A stretch of 64,000 nt of DNA, taken from contig JACRPN010000023.1 of the NCBI GenBank assembly GCA_016223145.1, positions 1-64,000 of the forward strand. Reading direction: 5' to 3'. Below the pieces are notes generated by a model. The model did not search any database, was not told where the DNA came from, and saw only the letters and a program-made list of their open reading frames with translations. The first letter of the stretch is position 1. Each line of letters opens with the position of its first letter. The DNA is from Armatimonadota bacterium. GTDB lineage: Bacteria; Armatimonadota; Fimbriimonadia; Fimbriimonadales; Fimbriimonadaceae. Made by a program: the position numbers and the translations under genes. Shown here in pieces: positions 3,413 to 50,118 of this stretch.

Positions 3413-4153
3413 ATGAGCAACGCACGAACTTCTCGAATCCTCGTCCTCGCCGCCGCAACCGCCCTTATGGCTCAGGCAGGCGCCGTCACCTTCAGCTTTA
3501 GCGGCAATTCGGGCATCAACGGCCAGGCCCTATCCGCCACAGCCAAGTTCACGGTTTCGGGCAACCACTTGACCGTCGTGCTCACCAACACGGGCCTTTC
3601 CGCGGCCAACGCCGGTGGCAACGTGCTCGACGCGCTCTATTTCAACATCAACGGCACCCCGACCCTCTCCAACGGCAACGCCACGCTCACCGCAGGTTCG
3701 AACCTGGTTAAGAAGAACAACAACGCGAACCAGAGCGGCAGCAACCTGAATTGGGAGTGGATGTACAGCGCCCCCGCCGGCGCCGGCTCGATCGGCTCCC
3801 GTTCCTATGGCATCGGCGCCTCGGGCTTTGGTGGATTCGCCAAGGAGAGCGAGAGCTTCGACCAGGTCTTCCACGGCGGTTCGCATCATCCGGGCAACAA
3901 CGACAGCGCCTACGGCATCGTTCCGACGGCGGGCATTTCGGCGGGCAACGGCTCCAATCTCTATTGCCGCAACTCCGTGACCTTCGCCTTCGACGTCAAC
4001 CAGCCGATCCAGGAGAGCGACATTCGGAACGTCGCCGTCTCTTACGGCTCGGCCGGCGAGACCCAGCTCCAAGCGGTCCCTGAGCCCGCCACGCTCGCCG
4101 TGCTCGGCATCGGCGGTCTGGGACTGATTCGTCGAAAGCGAAACCGCCGATAG
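3413..4153 (+). CDS. PEP-CTERM surface protein (paralogue 1)
   Basis: 246 residues. It has an N-terminal Sec signal (ILVLAAATALMAQAGA), a beta-rich Asn/Gly/Ser body, and a C-terminal sorting tail made of VPEPATLAVLG, a short hydrophobic segment and RRKRNRR. PEP-CTERM tails are known to be processed by exosortase, after which the protein is delivered to the surface or extracellular matrix. No exosortase gene lies in this window. It is a clear paralogue of the gene at 4472: both share the openings FTVSG, LTVVLTNT, NVLDA and the block PTAGISAGNGSNLY. A likely SD (AGGGAG) precedes the ATG. A strong hairpin terminator follows at once, so it is probably transcribed alone. Confidence 0.9.
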   Translation: MSNARTSRILVLAAATALMAQAGAVTFSFSGNSGINGQALSATAKFTVSGNHLTVVLTNTGLSAANAGGNVLDALYFNINGTPTLSNGNATLTAGSNLVKKNNNANQSGSNLNWEWMYSAPAGAGSIGSRSYGIGASGFGGFAKESESFDQVFHGGSHHPGNNDSAYGIVPTAGISAGNGSNLYCRNSVTFAFDVNQPIQESDIRNVAVSYGSAGETQLQAVPEPATLAVLGIGGLGLIRRKRNRR

Positions 4154-4471: not shown

Positions 4472-5197
4472 ATGAACCATTACTCTGTCAGCCGCTTGGC
4501 TATGATTGTCGCACTTTCAACTGCGGCGATCAGCGCCCATGCGCTCACGTTTACCTTTACCGGCGTTTCCGGGACAAACGGCCAGAACCTGAGCGCTGAA
4601 GCCACGTTCACGGTTTCCGGCTCGACCTTGACCGTCGTTCTCACCAACACCGCTACCGAGGCCGCAAGCGACGGCGCTAACGTTTTGGATGCGATCTACT
4701 TCGACGTCGATGGCGTCTACTCGTTCTCAAACGGCCAGGCGGCCCTCACGTCTGGATCGAGCCTCCGCAAGAAGGACGGCAGCACGGCATCGGGCAATCC
4801 GCTCAACAACGAGTGGATGTTTGACGGCCCTAAGGGCGCGCCGGTCAACCGAGACCTCGGGATCGGCTGCACGGGTTGGCTCGATTTCAACACGAATGCC
4901 GAAACGTTCGATCGCGTGTTCCATGGTGGAACGGGCAGCGCCGGCGCCAACGACAACTATGGCCTGATCCCGACTGCCGGCATCAGCGCGGGCAACGGAT
5001 CGAACCTGTATGCCAGGAACTCGATGACGTTCACGTTCACGGTAAGCGGCGGCCTTACCGAAGCCAAGATCTCGGGAGCGAAGGTGTCCTATGGCTCAGG
5101 CGGCCAGACCGTGATCGAGCACGACCCGGTGCCGGAACCGGCCACCCTTGCGGTGCTCGGTCTTGGGGCGCTTGGCCTGATTCGGCGACGCAAGTAA
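4472..5197 (+). CDS. PEP-CTERM surface protein (paralogue 2)
   Basis: 241 residues from ATG 4472, chosen because AAAGGAG lies just upstream. An in-frame GTG at 4454 would only add six residues over the SD itself. It has a signal peptide (MIVALSTAAISAHA), a beta-rich body and a C-terminal PEP-CTERM tail (VPEPATLAVLGLGALGLIRRRK). It is a tandem duplicate of the preceding gene, with near-identical segments around FTVSG-LTVVLTNT and PTAGISAGNGSNLYARNS and a diverged middle. The 5' leader holds a TTGACA at 4334-4339 without a convincing -10 box, and a small hairpin (AGCCGC/GCGGCT) directly before the SD that could limit translation. The role is unknown beyond surface sorting. Confidence 0.9.
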   Translation: MNHYSVSRLAMIVALSTAAISAHALTFTFTGVSGTNGQNLSAEATFTVSGSTLTVVLTNTATEAASDGANVLDAIYFDVDGVYSFSNGQAALTSGSSLRKKDGSTASGNPLNNEWMFDGPKGAPVNRDLGIGCTGWLDFNTNAETFDRVFHGGTGSAGANDNYGLIPTAGISAGNGSNLYARNSMTFTFTVSGGLTEAKISGAKVSYGSGGQTVIEHDPVPEPATLAVLGLGALGLIRRRK

Positions 5198-5460: not shown

Positions 5461-6063
5461 ATGAATACGAGGTCAATCAGAAGTGTGCTGGTTGGGATTG
5501 GGGCAATCGGATTCGCAACGGCCCATGGGGCCATCCTTATTGCCGCAGGCAACTCAGCCTTCACCGACAAAAACGTGTTGTTCAACGACGGAAGTTTGAC
5601 CCTTGATGGCACGACCATCAACGGCGTCCTCAACGGGACATCCACCTGGGTGGACTTCTTCAATGCCGGCGAGAGCCTGCACGGTAACGGCGGCCAGGCG
5701 CGCGTGGAAGGTTCCGACGGATCCTTCACCAAGCTCGAAATGAGCATGCACGATGCCGGTTGGGGCTACAAGACCCTGGTCTGGAACATCAATGCCGAAG
5801 ATGACGGTACGGTCACGTTTACGGTGCACCACACCGGCGGCGCAGACCACGTCGAGTCGTTTTCCGTGAACGACAACGGCAATAACTTCTTCAGCATCAG
5901 CACCACGGCCGGAGAGTTCATCACCTCGACCGAGCTCGCCATGGATGTGGATGCCGAAGACGTGCGCCAGATCCGCGTCGGCGGCGAAGGCGTGGTGCCC
6001 GAACCGGCCACCCTTGCGGTGCTCGGTCTTGGGGCGCTCGGCCTGATCCGACGCAAGCGATAA
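5461..6063 (+). CDS. PEP-CTERM surface protein
   Basis: 200 residues from ATG 5461, which has a good SD (AAAGGAG, spacing 5). The signal peptide is SVLVGIGAIGFATAHGA. The body is a beta-rich domain with acidic turns (NAEDDGTVTFTVHHTGG). The tail is VPEPATLAVLGLGALGLIRRKR. Its tail is almost identical at the DNA level to that of the gene at 4472, although the bodies differ. That pattern suggests tail exchange or recent conversion of the 3' end. A terminator follows. The function beyond exosortase-dependent surface display is unknown. Confidence 0.88.
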   Translation: MNTRSIRSVLVGIGAIGFATAHGAILIAAGNSAFTDKNVLFNDGSLTLDGTTINGVLNGTSTWVDFFNAGESLHGNGGQARVEGSDGSFTKLEMSMHDAGWGYKTLVWNINAEDDGTVTFTVHHTGGADHVESFSVNDNGNNFFSISTTAGEFITSTELAMDVDAEDVRQIRVGGEGVVPEPATLAVLGLGALGLIRRKR

Positions 6064-7722: not shown

Positions 7723-8373
7723 ATGAAAATGAGATTTACAGCCATCGCAGGTCTGGTGGCCTGCGTTTCTGCTGCCCAAGCCTATGTCATCGTGCAGCCC
7801 ACCGCCGCTACGAGCACCCACACCAGCTATACAGGCGGCGAAATCGAGCGCACCATCGATCAGAGTGGCTTGTTCACCGGCTATACGAGCGGCGTGACCG
7901 ACTTCGATGCCTACATCGCTTCCAGCCCGTACCACACCAATATCTTCTTTGGCTATGAGTGGTGGGTGGATGACGGCTCCACCACCGACACCCTGATCTA
8001 TGATCTCGGCGCGGTGTACATGGTGGACCGCGTCGCTCTTTGGAACGAAGAGAGCGCCGGACTGGACAGCGTGACCGTGACCACAGCCACCCTTTCGGAT
8101 TTTTCCGACGCTATGGGTGGCGGCGGCTTCACGGCAACGGACTGGCCCGAAACCATCTATCTGCCTGACGTGCACACCCTTGCCGGCGGAGTCCGTGCGA
8201 CTCGCTACGTGAAGCTCGAGGTCACGGCAGACCCCACGCCCTCGAACGCAAGCCTTGGAGGCGTTCCTTACCTTTCCATGGGTGAGTTTGCGGTTTCCGC
8301 GGTACCTGAGCCCGCGACGATGGCCGTTCTTGGCCTCGGCGCGGCCGCGCTCTTGCGACGACGCAGACGCTAG
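7723..8373 (+). CDS. PEP-CTERM surface protein, discoidin-like body
   Basis: 216 residues from ATG 7723, chosen because MKMRFTAIAGLVACVSAAQA is then a complete signal peptide. An in-frame ATG at 7675 would add 16 residues that do not resemble a signal. The body has a pattern like F5/8 type C (discoidin) carbohydrate-binding domains: LIYDLGAVYMVDRVALWNEE, then RATRYVKLEVTAD and a final beta strand. This is inference from the pattern only. The tail is VPEPATMAVLGLGAAALLRRRRR. It is probably a sugar-binding surface protein sorted by exosortase. Confidence 0.85.
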   Translation: MKMRFTAIAGLVACVSAAQAYVIVQPTAATSTHTSYTGGEIERTIDQSGLFTGYTSGVTDFDAYIASSPYHTNIFFGYEWWVDDGSTTDTLIYDLGAVYMVDRVALWNEESAGLDSVTVTTATLSDFSDAMGGGGFTATDWPETIYLPDVHTLAGGVRATRYVKLEVTADPTPSNASLGGVPYLSMGEFAVSAVPEPATMAVLGLGAAALLRRRRR

Positions 8374-8434: not shown

Positions 8435-8490
8435 GATGCCGCGCTTCTCCGTTGCACGGCTCGATGGGCCCGTGCCGCGCGTTCGTTCCT

Positions 8491-8588
8491 TTGCGCATCT
8501 GGCGAACACCTAAAGTGCGCCGGCACGGAACCGGCGGCTTTGCGCATCTGGCGAACACCTAAGGTGCGCCGGCACGGAACCGGCGGCT
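8491..8588. repeat. Tandem duplication of a 49-bp unit
   Basis: Copies at 8491-8539 and 8540-8588 differ at one base. Each contains the palindromic core GCCGG-CACGGA-ACCGGC and the phrase GGCGAACACCTAA. No reading frame through it is convincing. Confidence 0.85.
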
Positions 8589-10683: not shown

Positions 10684-11009
10684 GCTTCAGCGCGCCTTGT
10701 GCGCAGGGCATTCATGCCCAAGCCGCATCGAGGAATTGCCTGCTCCTAATGATGCTCGAGAGACGCTGCACTCTTGCGCGACAACCAGGACCCGCGCGGA
10801 GTGAAAGGCAAAGGAGTGCGCCGATCTTCGGCGCACCATGGAGCGCAGGCATCCTTGCCTGGCCCTGGAGGGCGAGTCTCCGTCCGAGCCGGCCGAGGGG
10901 GGGTGGCTCCGGCATGACCGGCGACCCCGTTGGCGCACTTTGGCAGTCTTGCCCGTTGGCTCCTTCACGTGGAATCCCCTGGAGTGATTGCCCTCAGCCT
11001 TTCCGGAGT

Positions 11010-11060
11010 CTCCCACCCCAACCCCTCCCTCAGTTTAGCTTCGCAAAACCAAGGGAGGGG
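11010..11060. repeat. Interspersed near-palindrome (CCCTCAGTTT...AAAACCAAGGGAGGG family)
   Basis: 51 bases that match 49687-49738 with about two differences. The arms CCCCTCCCT and AGGGAGGGG surround CAGTTTAGCTTCGCAAAACC. Further copies lie at 39159-39221 and 46019-46100 on the other strand. Confidence 0.8.
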
Positions 11061-11065
11061 CAATA

Positions 11066-15654: not shown

Positions 15655-16776
15655 GTGGACCGGATCCTGCTTGCTGCACCCCGAGGCTTTTGCGCTGGAG
15701 TGGCCTATGCCATCGAGGTGGTCGACCTGGCGCTCAAAATCCACGGCCCCCCCATTTACGTTCGCCATGCCATCGTACACAACGAGTGGGTGGTTCGTAG
15801 CTTTGAAGATCGCGGCGTCGTATTCGTCGAGGACGTAGATGACGTCCCGACAGGCATGCCCGCTGTTTTCAGTGCTCACGGCGTGAGTCCGGCTGTCCGG
15901 GAGCAAGCCAAAAATCGGGGCCTGTTGGTCATCGACGCGACTTGCCCGCTGGTCACCAAGGTTCACAACGAGGCCAAGCGCTACGCCGACAAAGGTTACT
16001 TCATGATCTACATCGGCCACGCGGGACACGTGGAGGCTGAAGGCACCATGGGCGAGGCGCCTGGGCGTATGGTACTGGTGGATAGTCCCGAAGACGCCGA
16101 GAAGCTCGACTTGCCCTATCACGAGAAGCTGGCGGTGCTCACGCAGACGACCCTGAGCGTCGACGAGGTCCAGCGCACGCTCGATGTGCTCAAACGGCGC
16201 TTCCCGCATCTGGAAACCCCCGCGAAGGAGGACATCTGCTATGCGACCACCAACCGACAGGCCGCGGTCCGCGAACTTGCGAAGCACTGCCAATTGGTGC
16301 TTGTAGTCGGAAGTCAAACCTCGTCGAACTCCAACCGACTTCGAGAAGTCGCTGAGTCCCTGGGGGCGGAAGCCCACCTGATCATGTCGCCCTCAGACAT
16401 CCGGCCGCAATGGCGGACGAACTACCCGGTCGTGGGAATCTCCTCGGGCGCAAGCACCCCGGAGCATCTGGTGGAAGATGTGATCGGCGAGCTGATCAGG
16501 GAGCCAGGGACGGAGGGACAAGGAGGAGGTCTGCGGTCTGAGGTCCGAGGTCAGGAAGAAGAGAGACCAAGGGACGGAGGGACGGAGGGACAAGGAGGCA
16601 CTGCCTTAGCCTCGCCCCTTTGGGGAGGGGCCGGTGAGCGTAGCGAACCGGGTGAGGGGGAAGCGGGTCCACGCACAACCCCAACACGGCCCACCGTCGA
16701 GATTCTCGAAACCGTTCGCGAGGACGTCCGGTTCTTGCCGCCTAGAGAGTTGATTCAGTTGGCGCAAAAGACCTAA
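15655..16776 (+). CDS. ispH: 4-hydroxy-3-methylbut-2-enyl diphosphate reductase with repeat-derived insert
   Basis: 373 residues from GTG 15655; the family is usually about 310. Last step of the MEP pathway, making IPP and DMAPP. Iron-sulphur cysteines are Cys13 (RGFCAGV), Cys97 (DATCPLV) and Cys195 (DICYATTNRQ). The catalytic TQTTLS and the SSNSNRL phosphate-binding motif are present. Between IGELIRE (279-283) and RPTVEILETV (345 on), an insert of about 62 Gly/Glu/Arg-rich residues is encoded by three repeat types: octamers NRAGGGAC, heptamers RGGTCYG, and one copy of the AGCGTAGCGAACCG family. The insert sits just before the last conserved strand (EDVRFLPPRE), so the enzyme probably still folds. 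Confidence 0.93.
   Translation: MDRILLAAPRGFCAGVAYAIEVVDLALKIHGPPIYVRHAIVHNEWVVRSFEDRGVVFVEDVDDVPTGMPAVFSAHGVSPAVREQAKNRGLLVIDATCPLVTKVHNEAKRYADKGYFMIYIGHAGHVEAEGTMGEAPGRMVLVDSPEDAEKLDLPYHEKLAVLTQTTLSVDEVQRTLDVLKRRFPHLETPAKEDICYATTNRQAAVRELAKHCQLVLVVGSQTSSNSNRLREVAESLGAEAHLIMSPSDIRPQWRTNYPVVGISSGASTPEHLVEDVIGELIREPGTEGQGGGLRSEVRGQEEERPRDGGTEGQGGTALASPLWGGAGERSEPGEGEAGPRTTPTRPTVEILETVREDVRFLPPRELIQLAQKT
16504..16660. repeat. Composite repeat block inside ispH
   Basis: Octamers at 16504-16527 and 16568-16599 (units such as GGAGGGAC, CAAGGGAC), four heptamers at 16527-16554 (AGGTCTG, CGGTCTG, AGGTCCG, AGGTCAG), and an interspersed-family copy at 16611-16660. All of it is translated in the ispH frame without a stop. 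Confidence 0.85.
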
Positions 16777-19522: not shown

Positions 19523-19592
19523 GGGTCTGGGGTTCGGGAGCTGGGGTCCGAGGTCCGAGGTCTGAGGTCCGAGGTCAGAATTCAGAGGTCTG
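19523..19592. repeat. Heptamer array RGGTCYG
   Basis: Ten consecutive seven-base units without one indel: GGGTCTG, GGGTTCG, GGAGCTG, GGGTCCG, AGGTCCG, AGGTCTG, AGGTCCG, AGGTCAG, AATTCAG, AGGTCTG. Diverged units keep their length, which argues for spacing being kept or for origin by unit slippage before divergence. Confidence 0.85.
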
Positions 19593-29815: not shown

Positions 29816-29867
29816 GTCGGGGAACGCAGTGAATCGAAGATCCCGCGCCTTACTGGACCGGGTGATG
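29816..29867. repeat. Truncated copy of the interspersed AGCGNAGCGAATCG family
   Basis: The stretch CGCAGTGAATCGAAGATCCC and the following CGCGCCTT...GGACCGGGTGA match the central and right parts of the two 105-bp copies at 49.6-49.8 kb. The left part is missing. It lies directly behind the lptD stop. Confidence 0.75.
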
Positions 29868-29872
29868 GTGTC

Positions 29873-29977
29873 AGGTCTGAGGTCTGAGGTCCGAGGTCCG
29901 AGGTCTGAGGTCTGGGGTCTGAGGTCTGAGGTCTGAGGTCCGAGGTCTGGGGTCTGGGGTCTGGGGTCTGGGGTCCG
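29873..29977. repeat. Heptamer array RGGTCYG, 15 units
   Basis: Exactly 105 bases in 15 units, drawn only from AGGTCTG, AGGTCCG, GGGTCTG and GGGTCCG. Variation is limited to unit positions 1 and 6. This is the longest and cleanest array in the window. Confidence 0.95.
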
Positions 29978-30002: not shown

Positions 30003-30020
30003 CAGTGGTCCCAGTATCAT

Positions 30021-30069
30021 CTCTCCCGACCGGGAGAGGTCGGTGAACGCAGCGAACCGGCGGAGGGGA
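30021..30069. repeat. Short copy of the interspersed AGCGNAGCGAACCG family
   Basis: CTCTCCC/GGGAGAG hairpin, then GTCGGTGAACGCAGCGAACC and GGAGGGG. It abuts the stop of the ABC-2 permease gene. Confidence 0.75.
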
Positions 30070-30855
30070 CTAGCTGCTCGCGCTAGCGTAGTTCCTTGTC
30101 GCATACAGCCAGAACAGCCGAGAAGCGAGGAGCGCGCCGAGCGCCCATGCCACCCCGATGCCGACGTGGATCAAGTTGAGACCGCGGGTGAGCTGGCTCG
30201 CCGGGACCGTTGCCAGGAAGGCCAACGGAATCCCATAGGTGAACGCCCTGCGCACCGACATCGGGAAGATGTCGATCGGGTACCGGGCGATGTCGAGCAC
30301 GGTCTCCCCCAGCACCCACAGGTTGTCCACTCGGACCAGCCAGATGGCGGTGGTCATCATGATCAGGTTCGCCGAATAGAAAAGGGCGATCGCGACCTTG
30401 ATGAGCAGCAGGTACGCAACCCACTGCCAGAAGCTTGGGTGCAGGCCGGACTGAACGAGGCCGATCACGAGCATCACGATCCCCGCCAAGAGCGCCCCGA
30501 GGCGGTCGAAATTGAAGCGTCGCATCGACACCCAGAACTGGGAATCGAGCGGCTTGGTCAGGATGTAATCGAGGGTTCCCCGACGAATGTGTTCGGGGAT
30601 CTCCATCAGCGAGAAGAACATCGCCGAGAACAGCGCGCTCATCGCAAAACAGGTTGCCACCAGAATGAACGCCTCACCCCGTCCCCAATTGGCGATGCTC
30701 GGCGTGTTCCGATAGATCGCCAGAAGCACGAGCAGGGAGAACCCGACCCACGTGGCGTTTTGGAGCAGCTTGGCCAGGAAGTTGGCGCGAAACTCCAGCT
30801 CGCGGGCAAGTGAGCTGACCCAAAACGTGCGGTACACGCGCCAAATGCGGGACAT
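30070..30855 (-). CDS. ABC-2 type transporter permease (COG3694/DUF990-like)
   Basis: 261 residues with six predicted membrane spans. The N-terminus (RVYRTFWVSSLARELEFRANFLAKLL) and the phrase IPEHIRRGTLDYILTKPLDSQF are typical of the uncharacterised DUF990-type ABC-2 permeases. These usually come as two permeases plus an ATPase. Neither partner is adjacent, so they must be elsewhere. The substrate is unknown. It is divergent from the next gene with only 23 bases between the start codons, so one of the two starts may be further inside. Confidence 0.85.
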   Translation of the reverse strand: MSRIWRVYRTFWVSSLARELEFRANFLAKLLQNATWVGFSLLVLLAIYRNTPSIANWGRGEAFILVATCFAMSALFSAMFFSLMEIPEHIRRGTLDYILTKPLDSQFWVSMRRFNFDRLGALLAGIVMLVIGLVQSGLHPSFWQWVAYLLLIKVAIALFYSANLIMMTTAIWLVRVDNLWVLGETVLDIARYPIDIFPMSVRRAFTYGIPLAFLATVPASQLTRGLNLIHVGIGVAWALGALLASRLFWLYATRNYASASS

Positions 30856-38151: not shown

Positions 38152-38160
38152 ACACTCACT

Positions 38161-38232
38161 GCCCTAATGCCCTCATGCCCTAACGCCCTAATGCCCTAAT
38201 GCCCTAATGCCCCAATGCCCCAATGCCCTAAC
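38161..38232. repeat. Octamer array GCCCTAAY, nine units
   Basis: 72 bases in nine units of exactly eight (GCCCTAAT, GCCCTCAT, GCCCTAAC, GCCCCAAT variants). It ends at the stop of the pilin-like gene. Confidence 0.92.
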
Positions 38233-38234
38233 GC

Positions 38235-39038
38235 CTACTCATAGATACTCTTCACACTCGAAAACATCGGCCTCTTCAGGCCGAAGTAGGTGATCCTCTT
38301 GGCGTGGGTGTCGGCCCAGAGCGCATTGGCACCTTTGCGGTGGAGGAAATGGAAATGGTCGATGAGGTTCGGGTCGTTCGGAGGACTGTTGAACCAGTCG
38401 GACGGCTGGAGGAAGTTGCAGACGGGCGCCCTGGCCTCGTGCTCCCAAAGCAAGAGGGTGCCGGCAGGCTCCTCGACCACCGAAGCATTGGCGCCGAGCG
38501 AGACCGTGGCGCCGCTGACATCGGTTTCACCGGTACGCGCCATCGGGCCATATTCTTGGCCCCTGGCCGCAGGGTTGGTGTTGTAGTACTCGGACGAGAT
38601 CCCCGGATTGAACCAATTGGTGGCGTAGGAAAGCTGCCATTCGCCCGGCATGGCGGGGCAGCGCTTGACGCCTTCATCCTTCAGGTAGCGGTCGATGGCG
38701 CCCGGCCGGACCGGATTCTGCGCGGGCTCGATCCCCCTACCAAAGAACCCGCCCAGGAGACCCGCATTGTTGTTGTCATAGCCGATCCACATCTGCTGCG
38801 GCGCAAAGCCGGGTAGGTTGTCGATGAGCGCCGCTGGGCAATAGGTGTCGTCCTCATCGGCCAGATAGAGCGAGACGGCGAGGCCCAACTGGCGCATGTT
38901 GCTCATGCACACGATCTGCTTGGCGGTGACCTTTGCCTGGACAAAAACCGGCAGCAGGATGGCAGCGAGGATCGCGATGATGGCGATGACAACGAGCAGC
39001 TCGATGAGCGTGAAGGCCTTTGGCAGGCGACGGCGCAT
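38235..39038 (-). CDS. Type IV pilin-like protein with H-X9-DG-type C-terminus
   Basis: 267 residues from ATG 39038 (GAGGG upstream, spacing 5). The prepilin N-terminus [26 protein letters not shown] has the cleavage and methylation site after KA-F and Glu at +5. The C-terminus [19 protein letters not shown] matches the H-X9-D(G/T) signature of the large family of pilin-like proteins in Planctomycetes, Verrucomicrobia and Armatimonadota. It is probably processed by a prepilin peptidase and joins a pseudopilus or surface layer. No other pilus gene lies nearby. Confidence 0.9.
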
Positions 39039-39110
39039 GGTTTCCCTCAAGGTATCTCCCATTCTGATACACGTCTAGGTCCGCTTGAGGCCCCGGTTTG
39101 GTTCGCAGAA

Positions 39111-39152
39111 GAGGCGAGAGGTGAGAAGCGAGGGGCGAGGAGCGAAGGGCGA
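39111..39152. repeat. Heptamer array RRRGCGA, six units
   Basis: GAGGCGA, GAGGTGA, GAAGCGA, GGGGCGA, GGAGCGA, AGGGCGA, with no indel. Confidence 0.85.
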
Positions 39153-39158
39153 TTGGGG

Positions 39159-39221
39159 CCCCCTCCTTGGTTTTGCGAAGCGAAATTGCTTCCGAGTCCC
39201 GACGTGTCGGGAAGGAGGGGG
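39159..39221. repeat. Near-palindromic family copy, interrupted
   Basis: CCCCCTCCTTGGTTTTGCGA and AGCGAAATTG match the family. The right arm is displaced by a small hairpin TCCCGACGTGTCGGGA before AAGGAGGGGG. Confidence 0.7.
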
Positions 39222-43734: not shown

Positions 43735-45051
43735 CTATTGCGCCGCAACAGGTACGCCGCCCACTGCCCCGACCGCAAACATGTGGTCGTCCACATTGAT
43801 CTTCTGCGCGATGAACTCCGTCTTCTCGCCCACCTCGAAAACGCCTTGCCACACCGGGCTCGAGGTCTCGCGCCAGTAGACCACGTACTTGACCCCCGGA
43901 GTGCCGCGCCATGTGATCTTGGAGTGGTGCCCCTGATCGCGCACCATGCGCACGTTCGTTGGCGCCTCGCCCGCATTCGCAAGCGCCGCCATCGAACAGA
44001 GGTTGGCACGTACGTTGTTGGCGAAATAGGCGTAGTCGATGAATTCGGGCAGGTCGTTCACGGTGTGCTGACGGTTGTATTCCTCGATGACCTCCACGAA
44101 CCGCACCGCCGTGAAGCCCTGCCGGACAAACGGCGTGTGGTCGCCGCCGCGCCCAAAGCGGTCGCGTCGGAAGACTAGCTTGATCCCGTGCCTTCCCTTC
44201 ATCGTCTGCCGAACCTGCCACTCGATGAACCGAGCCAATTCGCGGGAGTTGTGGGGCCTGGGTCCCTCCCCTTGTTGCGCGGCGGGAGGGGCGGCTACCC
44301 CCTCACCCGGTTCACTTCGCTTACCGACCTCTCCCACGGGGGGAGAGGTGGACTGCGAGACGCCGGCAGGCTGAGAGTCTGCCCCACGGGTTCGCGTGGA
44401 GGGAGATGGGACATATTCCTCGCTGAAAACCCGAACGAACTTGGTTTCCTTCTGGCTCAGGTCGTTGTGCGTGTTGCCCACCATGTCATTGCTGAGCACG
44501 GCTTCCAGATCCCAGTTCTCTTCGCGGGCTCGCTTGGCGAGCGCCCCCGAGCCCAACAGTCCCTGCTCTTCTCCCGAAAACGCGCAGAAGACTAGCGTGT
44601 TCTCCCACTTTCTCTGGCTCAGGATTCGCGCCAGTTCGAGCGCGAGGGCCGTTCCACTGCCGTCGTCGTTCGCTCCCGGCGAACGCGCTGTGAAGGGGTC
44701 CGCGCCCTGGCCCATGTTGATCGTGTCGAAGTGCCCGCCCACCAGAATGCGCCGGTTCGTTCTGCCGGGCAGAACCGCAACGACCTCCACCACTTCTTTG
44801 TCGGCCGGGATACGGCTCCCCCGCTTCACCTGATACTTGTAGAGCTCAACCTGAAGCCCGGGAATCTTCTTGTATTCGCCCGCGATCCACTCGGCCGCCT
44901 GGAAGAGCTCGGGCGTGTTGGTGTTCCGGGTGTTGAAGCTTGCCAGCTTTTCAACAGTCGCACGCAAGCGCTTCGGGTCGACTTGTTTGAGCATGGCGTC
45001 GAGGCTGGGTTCCTGCATCGTTAGGGCTCCAAGGGCGAGGATTGCGAGCAT
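43735..45051 (-). CDS. M28-family zinc aminopeptidase with repeat-derived insert
   Basis: 438 residues with a short signal (LAILALGALT). The di-zinc site is complete: His107 (GGHFD), Asp129 (GANDDGSG), Glu161/Glu162 (SGEEQG), Asp189 (SNDMVG), His305 (GGDHTPF). It is expected to release N-terminal amino acids outside the cytoplasm. Residues about 216-267 are an insert rich in Ser, Pro, Gly and Glu. Its DNA (44299-44351) is a copy of the same interspersed repeat found in ispH, read in the same phase (KRSEPGEG here, ERSEPGEG there). The fold resumes with NSRELARFIEWQVRQT. A fibronectin-like beta tail closes the protein. It is divergent from the NHL gene by 27 bases. Confidence 0.92.
   Translation of the reverse strand: MLAILALGALTMQEPSLDAMLKQVDPKRLRATVEKLASFNTRNTNTPELFQAAEWIAGEYKKIPGLQVELYKYQVKRGSRIPADKEVVEVVAVLPGRTNRRILVGGHFDTINMGQGADPFTARSPGANDDGSGTALALELARILSQRKWENTLVFCAFSGEEQGLLGSGALAKRAREENWDLEAVLSNDMVGNTHNDLSQKETKFVRVFSEEYVPSPSTRTRGADSQPAGVSQSTSPPVGEVGKRSEPGEGVAAPPAAQQGEGPRPHNSRELARFIEWQVRQTMKGRHGIKLVFRRDRFGRGGDHTPFVRQGFTAVRFVEVIEEYNRQHTVNDLPEFIDYAYFANNVRANLCSMAALANAGEAPTNVRMVRDQGHHSKITWRGTPGVKYVVYWRETSSPVWQGVFEVGEKTEFIAQKINVDDHMFAVGAVGGVPVAAQ
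44299..44351. repeat. Interspersed AGCGNAGCGAACCG family copy inside peptidase gene
   Basis: CCCTCACCCGGTTCACTTCG and CTTACCGACCTCTCCCAC, then GGGGGAGAGG. Reverse-orientation copy relative to the window; in the sense orientation of its host gene, like the ispH copy. Confidence 0.9.
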
Positions 45052-46018: not shown

Positions 46019-46100
46019 GCCCCCTCCTTGGTTTTGCGAAGCGAAACTGAGGGAGGGGCTTCCAGACTTCCCTTTCCCCGGCAATACCAAGGGAGGGGGG
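46019..46100. repeat. Near-palindromic family copy plus half-copy
   Basis: CCCCCTCCTTGGTTTTGCGA, AGCGAAACTGAGGGAGGGG, then a second right arm TACCAAGGGAGGGGGG after 25 bases. It lies between two converging genes, so it may act as a shared bidirectional terminator. Confidence 0.8.
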
Positions 46101-49471: not shown

Positions 49472-49569
49472 AAAGCAAGAAGCGAAGGGCGATGCGCGAT
49501 GCGAAACACGCGTTGAGAGAGGGACGATATGTGACCGGCAATGCGCGGCGAGCGATGAGCGATGAGTTG
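49472..49569. repeat. Heptamer array RRRGCGA, 14 degenerate units
   Basis: 98 bases in strict seven-base register, from AAAGCAA, GAAGCGA, AGGGCGA, TGCGCGA to CGAGCGA, TGAGCGA, TGAGTTG. Middle units (CACGCGT, TATGTGA, CCGGCAA) are strongly diverged but still seven long. Confidence 0.75.
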
Positions 49570-49572
49570 TAT

Positions 49573-49677
49573 CACCACCTCGCCTCCTTGTGGAGAGGTC
49601 GGTGCCTGCCCCGGTTCCATCGGGGAGCAAAGCGAATCGAAGATCCCGCGCCTTATGGGACCGGGTGAGGGGGCCTT
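49573..49677. repeat. 105-bp interspersed repeat, copy 1
   Basis: Starts CACCACCTCGCC and ends CCGGGTGAGGGGGCCTT. It is the full-length form of the family whose shorter copies sit in ispH, the M28 peptidase and behind lptD. It contains GAATCGAAGATCCCGCGCCT. Confidence 0.9.
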
Positions 49678-49686
49678 GTCCCTATG

Positions 49687-49738
49687 TCTCCCACCCCAAC
49701 CCCTCCCTCAGTTTCGCTGCGCAAAACCAAGGGAGGGG
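49687..49738. repeat. Near-palindromic family copy
   Basis: Nearly identical to 11010-11060. It lies between the two 105-bp copies, suggesting that the families move or amplify together. Confidence 0.85.
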
Positions 49739-49742
49739 CTCA

Positions 49743-49847
49743 CACCACCTCGCCCCCTTTGGGAGAGTTCGGTGCCTGCCCCGGTTCCATCGGGGAGCGT
49801 AGCGAATCGAAGATCCCGCGCCTTGCGGGACCGGGTGAGGGGGCCTT
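49743..49847. repeat. 105-bp interspersed repeat, copy 2
   Basis: Same length and orientation as copy 1 with about ten differences, mostly in the left hairpin (CCTCGCC...GGAGAG) and the CCTT-NNGGGA loop, where changes look compensatory. Confidence 0.9.
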
Positions 49848-49899: not shown

Positions 49900-49975
49900 G
49901 GGCCTGTAGCTCAGAGGTTAGAGCGTGCGGCTCATAACCGCTTGGTCCCGGGTTCGAATCCCGGCGGGCCCACCA
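49900..49975 (+). tRNA. tRNA with anticodon CAT (tRNA-Met, or tRNA-Ile2)
   Basis: A 76-nt cloverleaf with encoded CCA (49973-49975). Acceptor GGGCCTG/CGGGCCC with one G-T pair, D arm GCTC/GAGC, anticodon loop CTCATAA, T arm CCGGG-TTCGAAT-CCCGG. G1-C72 pairing rules out the initiator type. The anticodon arm GGCTCATAACC resembles Bacillus tRNA-Ile2, whose C34 becomes lysidine, so elongator Met versus Ile2 remains open. Confidence 0.93.
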
Positions 49976-49978
49976 AGG

Positions 49979-50013
49979 GATTTACGATTTGCGATTTGGG
50001 ATTTACGATTTCG
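49979..50013. repeat. Heptamer array GATTTNN
   Basis: GATTTAC, GATTTGC, GATTTGG, GATTTAC, GATTTCG, starting four bases behind the tRNA. It is unusually AT-rich for this window. Confidence 0.85.
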
Positions 50014-50063: not shown

Positions 50064-50108
50064 CACTCTCACCATTCCTTCCACTCTCACCACTCTCACC
50101 ACTCTCAC
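50064..50108. repeat. Nonamer array CACTCTCAC in nadB leader
   Basis: CACTCTCAC, CATTCCTTC, then CACTCTCAC three times. It ends ten bases before the nadB ATG, in the place where an SD would be expected. No SD is visible. Confidence 0.85.
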
Positions 50109-50118
50109 CTCCCTTACT

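Follow-up and report, generated by a model that had tools for sequence, protein, structure and literature searches.

Dispersed repeats resembling intrastrand triplex motifs in a Fimbriimonadaceae genome: covariation of a tag with both hairpin arms and insertion into protein genes

The BoxC/PIT repeats of Escherichia coli (TM_ECO; Hoyne & Maher 2000, as cited in Holder et al. 2015, PMC4666352) are intrastrand triplex motifs, and oligonucleotides of such motifs fold as triplexes in vitro. According to the purine-motif code given in that article, the third strand runs antiparallel to the purine arm, with G matched by G and A matched by A or T, and its introduction states that purine-motif triplexes do not form in RNA. 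In-vivo DMS footprinting, as reported there, did not show a stable triplex in E. coli, the motifs were linked to instability, and their copies were always found to be intergenic. Holder et al. 2015 (PMC4666352) left it unsettled whether such motifs undergo insertion or deletion, as well as where they came from and by what means they spread, and the main text of the article contains no word starting with “covari” or “compensat”. Other described repeats that bear comparison include the Rickettsia palindromic elements (RPEs), which are reported in frame in 19 frames of protein genes (PMC2229807), the GTAG/CGTC REPs with their RAYTs (PMC3733652), and the heptameric repeats of Xanthomonas and Nostoc (PMC4692102).

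Here, we describe an island of repeats in the genome of an Armatimonadota bacterium (3.87 Mb, GenBank assembly GCA_016223145.1, hereafter G000), located within a window of 64,000 nucleotides, i.e., the whole stretch of DNA that was analysed. The island consists of a heptamer array followed by A, B, and A elements, and is bordered by a 5'-nucleotidase gene on one side and a tRNA-Met gene (49900-49975) on the other (Table 1). The original prediction of 14 heptamers is borne out as a degenerate array, of which the lag-7 signal is significant after choosing the best of lags 5-12 (p 0.0005); TRF alone does not list an array at this place. Two direct copies of 105 bp (92% identical, 8 differences) likewise proved to be as predicted. 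The near-palindrome between them (49686-49740, with 18-nt arms that are 83% complementary) does exist, but it does not repeat the 105-mer: A and B are two separate families.

Table 1. Positions of the repeat elements, their parts, and one element-bearing gene in the window
Feature	Position	Strand	Evidence
Degenerate heptamer array, 14 units	49472..49569	.	lag-7 identity 0.505 vs 0.29 shuffled
A element, long form, copy 1	49573..49677	+ (purine strand)	105-bp direct repeat, 92%
B element, hairpin and mirror tag, 54 bp	49687..49740	- (purine strand)	R1 match 82.8 bits; triads 10/10
B tag GGGGTGGGAG, mirror of purine arm, third-strand candidate	49688..49697	-	sequence; tag/arm covariation
B purine arm GAGGGAGGGG	49700..49709	-	sequence read-out
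B 5' pyrimidine arm CCCCTCCCTT	49729..49738	-	sequence read-out
A element, long form, copy 2	49743..49847	+	105-bp direct repeat, 92%
A copy 2 tag GGTGAGGGG, third-strand candidate	49834..49842	+	sequence read-out
B element	11009..11062	-	78.0 bits
A element, short form	16609..16661	+	
Partial long A element	29817..29865	+	
Diverged short A element	30016..30075	+	
Partial B element	39158..39188	-	
M28 peptidase gene bearing short A	43735..45051	-	PF04389
A element, short form, in frame within M28 peptidase gene	44299..44351	-	insert missing in 9/9 aligned relatives
B hairpin without tag	46019..46060	+	covers model positions 2-43 only

Both families are dispersed throughout the source genome. 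The island DNA used as a query hit 62 places, and at E ≤ 1 the B model R1 matched 141 times, often with both strands of one hairpin; leaving out such opposite-strand duplicates and the weakest rows, 97 distinct B sites were listed. For the short form of A, a DNA query gave 49 matches and an exact pattern 67, while the reversed pattern, used as a control, gave none. A and B elements lie at most 60 bp apart in 13 pairs for the 97 listed B sites, where about 0.4 would be expected, and the A-B-A island is therefore one of several composites. Dispersed elements of a REP-like or MITE-like kind had been foreseen, and these counts, together with the evidence for insertion presented below, agree with that view. 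Compared with MITEs, for which terminal inverted repeats and a target-site duplication are expected, B forms an inverted repeat that carries its tag on one side, and the nearest relatives are too distant to show exact junctions.

The window contains further repeats. Many tandem arrays of 7-, 8-, and 9-mers with unrelated units occur in intergenic regions beside A or B elements (19541-19590, 29873-29975, 38160-38235, 39110-39152, 49977-50013, and 50064-50109); the array at 49977-50013 was recognised by eye and the others by a tandem-repeat search. Intergenic 7-mer arrays are also known from the heptameric repeats of Xanthomonas and Nostoc, but these are built from other units, and the GGGNATC unit described for them (PMC4692102) is absent here. 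The window further contains a 49-bp tandem duplication (8489-8588, 98% alike) and four related 60-bp stretches (4075-4134, 5128-5187, 5994-6053, and 8301-8360). Read by eye as VPEPATLAVLGLG..., these stretches presumably resemble a PEP-CTERM-like sorting signal.

On its purine strand, a B element reads as a pyrimidine arm, an inner stem with loop, a purine arm, the linker TT, and a tag that mirrors the purine arm, A being matched by A or T. In the copy of the island, 10 out of 10 triads fit the class II order of pyrimidine arm, purine arm, and reverse-Hoogsteen tag (G·GC, A·AT, and T·AT). The hairpin itself has been maintained by compensatory changes. In an alignment of 26 copies (A2; 2 of the 28 candidates were left out) with 24 distinct rows, 98.3% of the cells are paired, 4 of the 15 pairs have changed on both sides, and the covariation score of 0.170 (0.081 when shuffled) is reached by none of 500 shuffles. 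Pair 14-33, for instance, is G-C in 16 distinct rows and U-A in the other 8, pair 7-40 is U-A in 20 and C-G in 4, and pair 8-39 is C-G in 20 and U-A in 3.

In family A, 6 of the 15 pairs have changed on both sides, and the covariation score (0.102 vs 0.055 shuffled) is again reached by none of 500 shuffles, so that hairpin compensation is significant in both families. The compensatory arm differences of the original prediction thus hold for the family alignments; a comparison of just the two 105-mers yields no clean two-sided case, and their folds barely beat shuffled sequences (z -1.34, -0.63, -1.87, and -0.51). The short form of A is an E. coli-like motif in which the second linker is replaced by a hairpin, the linker measuring ~20 nt in the short and ~66 nt in the long form. 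In an alignment of 47 copies (A5), this linker hairpin (helix 2) is 97.4% paired, both sides having changed in 4 of its 6 pairs, and the arms often contain a G.A mismatch (34 of 45 unpaired at 8-20). Shorter copies had been predicted to be internal deletion forms. They do exist, but as they are commoner than the long form, which carries two additional inner hairpins that also occur separately at 11 and 13 sites, the short form could just as well be the basic one. The exact short-A pattern was found in only two out of 101 genomes, G000 (67) and G079, which belongs to another genus (70). The linkers of G079 are different hairpins, with four complementary outer pairs in 20 of the 24 distinct linkers (permuted mean 9.9, maximum 18), and a hairpin linker is therewith seen independently in a second genus.

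The likeness of both families to BoxC/PIT lies in the class II order, the high GC content, and the many dispersed copies (Hoyne & Maher 2000, as cited; Holder et al. 2015, PMC4666352). For family A it extends to the sequence, as the arms CCTCGCCCCTTTGGGGAGAGG and the tag GGGTGAGGGG of A copies are identical to those of E. coli motifs 7, 11, and 15 listed in Table 1 of PMC4666352, including the G.A mismatch. Compared with the TM_ECO/BoxC consensus, CCCTCNCCC N3-6 GGGNGAGGG N3 GGGNGAGGG, A comes close in its arms and tag and misses the 3-nt linker, while B has another sequence altogether. Both also fall outside the ITxF class II definition, which, as given in that article, wants both loops to be 1-6 nt long: B has ~19 nt between its arms, paired inside, and A has the hairpin linker of either length. 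The A tag is nearly invariant, so its putative role as a third strand is suggested by this likeness to the E. coli motifs.

For B, the tag can be examined through its natural variation. Other B copies have the arm GAGGAGGGGG with the tag GGGGGTGGAG, so that the three strands change register jointly, and this change occurs on two different loop backgrounds inside the source genome alone. The tag/arm rows selected with R1 numbered 300 (150 of 161 and 150 of 158 matches), of which 240 were full-length, 238 had a hairpin, and 176 were distinct; 168 of these could be parsed and 8 could not. Perfect 8-mers are present in 66/83, 43/51, 7/9, and 4/6 of the elements in the four largest arm classes, and 35 of the 75 unique tag/arm pairs are perfect mirrors, where 5000 permutations gave a mean of 15.4 and a maximum of 27. 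The mean mirror score of these pairs (6.60) is slightly above that of the permutations (mean 6.35, maximum 6.57). When the R1 matches are parsed with the arm running into the TT linker, 29 of 135 are perfect (permuted 11.3, maximum 22).

To avoid selecting for the mirror, a further search left positions free in both arm and tag. The pattern GAGGRRGGGGTTGGGGDDGGAG, which leaves two arm and two tag positions open, was matched in 85 stretches in the contigs of 84,980 species, and 89 of the 99 distinct matches fit the mirror rule (permuted mean 38.0, maximum 55). After exclusion of the 13 matches without a hairpin, 82 out of 86 fit the triplex rule, compared to a mean of 35.5 and a maximum of 51 in 10000 permutations; the class GAGGAGGGGG-TT-GGGGGTGGAG accounts for 47 of the 86. 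As the copies are related and not independent, the matches were also counted once per genome and class, which removes shared ancestry only partly: 35 of 37 then fit (permuted mean 12.5, maximum 23), spanning 29 genomes, 7 of which have two or more arm classes. Most of these records belong to Armatimonadota, with others from Burkholderiales, Novosphingobium, Croceibacterium, and Gammaproteobacteria, and exceptions to the rule come from an Anaerolineae MAG (three matches) and a Nitrospinaceae MAG (one match). Weaker results came from a broad hairpin scan that also took in hairpins outside the repeats, with 10 perfect mirrors in 163 (permuted 2.0, maximum 7), and from all 1204 purine-arm hairpins taken together, which contain 157 (permuted 23.7). 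Three-strand covariation holds for B and its relatives, with A standing outside this evidence. Among the pattern matches, the JADZEW records, deposited as Methanoregulaceae archaeon SJ84, seem to be identical to a genome of the bacterial family of the window (G013), and their deposit name looks wrong. In genome G009, a 41-bp triplex-type motif occurs in tandem with a 51-bp spacing at two loci (L083 and L085).

Elements are found not only between but also inside genes, in both orientations. The short A element in the M28 peptidase gene is read in frame and coincides with ~51 extra residues that are missing in all nine aligned relatives, and an A element and a B-like hairpin in frame in the alanyl-tRNA synthetase (AlaRS) gene coincide with a 44-residue insert that is missing in all 11 aligned relatives, two of which are of the same genus. 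Such empty sites mean that the elements insert. For GlnRS, only one of 12 relatives was matched at a strict cut-off, so solved structures provide the evidence for an empty site: residues 55-146 and 178-632 are covered by the alignment of PDB 5bnz, which has 8 residues in between, and the element occupies residues 151-168. Solved structures were likewise the reference for the in-frame elements of LeuRS and the aconitase AcnA. Copies in frame were also found in IleRS and PheT, in an amidohydrolase, in a GH2 enzyme, and in an MBL protein, as well as in a glycosyltransferase and an Fe-S protein with a long A.

In a Pfam scan of 20 distinct long spanning frames, 14 had family evidence before and after the element, i.e., M28, GlnRS, LeuRS, AlaRS, IleRS, PheT, AcnA, amidohydrolase, GH2, MBL, Fe-S/CCG protein, GT2, DUF5107/TPR, and FG-GAP protein. 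The element sits between two domains in the cases of Fe-S, DUF5107, and FG-GAP, which are weaker. Of the remaining frames, three have one-sided family evidence (L197, L365, and L368) and three have none (L103, L350, and L182). The elements have inserted into protein genes, essential ones included, with an unbroken reading frame. This is no general habit, since the elements of G079 are nearly all outside long spanning frames (of 36 places scanned, which include duplicates, one is a weak case). The AlaRS frame (L201, G000:C11:134825-138680) has a second B element at residues ~816-880, where the relative G001 has a CGGCH motif and ~66 residues. The motif CGGxH (x = C, T, S, I, or L) was found nowhere in any frame of L201, and the metal site of the AlaRS editing domain therefore seems to be lost.

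Palindromic repeats of similar size lying in frame in conserved protein genes recall the RPEs, but no mirror tag is described in the RPE passages compared (PMC2229807), the taxon is unrelated, and here five aminoacyl-tRNA synthetase genes carry elements. The in-gene copies also differ from the intergenic habit of the E. coli motifs (PMC4666352). A hairpin with a tag at one end, clustering, and some in-gene copies are shared with the GTAG/CGTC REPs (PMC3733652), but the elements here show no GTAG or CGTC tag and no RAYT at their flanks, and two genomes that carry them have no Y1 gene.

Taken together, A and B are probably short, non-autonomous repeats of the intrastrand-triplex (BoxC/PIT) type that have been mobile in evolution. 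When the purine strand is single-stranded, e.g., on the lagging-strand template, the GC-rich hairpin would form, and the G-rich tag could fold back antiparallel on its purine arm in G·G.C, A·A.T, and T·A.T triads, bridged by a linker of 2 nt in B and by a second hairpin in A. A putative ssDNA-handling machine may recognise this folded strand and copy or insert it. Insertions fall between and into genes, and those in essential genes persist if the frame stays open. The E. coli footprints (PMC4666352), the frequent G.A mismatch in the A arms, the near invariance of the A tag, the matches that break the rule, and the scarcity of in-gene copies in G079 weigh against this reading.

Several other explanations can account for part of these observations. 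Selection at the RNA level, with the hairpins acting as terminators, attenuators, or mRNA stabilisers, would produce the compensatory changes in both families, and the purine strand of B folds well with RNA parameters (z -5.06, 0 of 200 shuffles equally good). However, Watson-Crick pairing cannot explain why an unpaired tag mirrors the arm, so the RNA structure that the original prediction suggested may be kept is unsupported; moreover, RNA reportedly does not form purine-motif triplexes (PMC4666352), the elements also lie in genes in both orientations, and an Rfam scan of the 64-kb window matched two tRNAs and nothing else. We consider this explanation very unlikely. Still more improbable are G-quadruplexes, for which class-1 B would provide four runs of at least three G (G3-A-G4-TT-G4-T-G3) from arm and tag: a quadruplex does not require mirror order, and it was rejected as a shared constraint because class GAGGAGGGGG-TT-GGGGGTGGAG keeps the mirror with only two such runs. 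A protein that reads tag and arm separately and imposes the match through its own specificity, with no triplex involved, would leave the same covariation. IS200/IS605 transposases, which match a guide with a cleavage site, are a precedent for such matched pieces. Mirror repeats lack twofold symmetry, though, and one protein surface would not be expected to read both as duplex; in addition, matching of G with G and of A with A or T would be just the reverse-Hoogsteen code. A separate reading of the two pieces is unlikely.

What moves the elements is a related question. Passive spread of the elements as hot spots that are copied through replication stalling, template switching, and repair, with no dedicated enzyme, would suit the instability tied to triplex motifs in E. 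coli (PMC4666352) and the second AlaRS site, where B replaces ~66 residues of the G001 protein, but it fits poorly with in-frame inserts between intact flanks and with the sharp ends of many copies, and appears somewhat unlikely. Movement as classic REPs by a RAYT (TnpA_REP, a Y1 transposase) that reads tag and hairpin, the partner proposed in the original prediction, would agree with the presence of a hairpin and a tag, with the A-B composites, and with the occurrence of Y1_Tnp in 16 of 19 element-rich genomes of the window's family compared to 17 of 42 others (p 0.0014, uncorrected for kinship). Against it, no conserved GTAG or CGTC is present at an element end in the alignments A2 (B) and A5 (A), and none of the 12 Y1_Tnp matches in G000 has an element close by. 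R1 matches were found at 2 of 31 Y1 loci, both distant from the gene, and among 20 further Y1 loci from relatives there were five matches at E ≤ 0.1 in four loci, strong only at L259 (~160 bp from the frame) and L250 (~750 bp). Furthermore, no Y1_Tnp was found at E ≤ 10 in G079, a 99% complete genome with 70 A copies, or in G041, with 11 B matches, so a Y1 enzyme is unneeded for carrying the elements now. A Y1 enzyme may have played a role in the past, but a RAYT as the mover is quite improbable. The further genome copies and the alignment covariation on which the original prediction depended were nevertheless both found.

As far as the openly readable literature goes, the covariation of all three strands, the form with a hairpin as linker, and the copies in frame are new. 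They bear on the question left by Holder et al. (PMC4666352), as the third strand co-varies with the duplex and empty sites show insertion, and element-bearing genomes that lack Y1 transposases speak against the enzymes that would be suspected first. The natural classes with matched and mismatched arms and tags are ready oligonucleotides for asking if triplex formation is the selected property. More tentatively, and with considerable doubt, the repeats might represent a widespread class of mobile DNA that is recognised as a three-stranded fold of a single strand, in which tag and arms co-evolve across phyla, for which the known REP transposases would be dispensable, and which may rewrite essential proteins, including several aminoacyl-tRNA synthetases.
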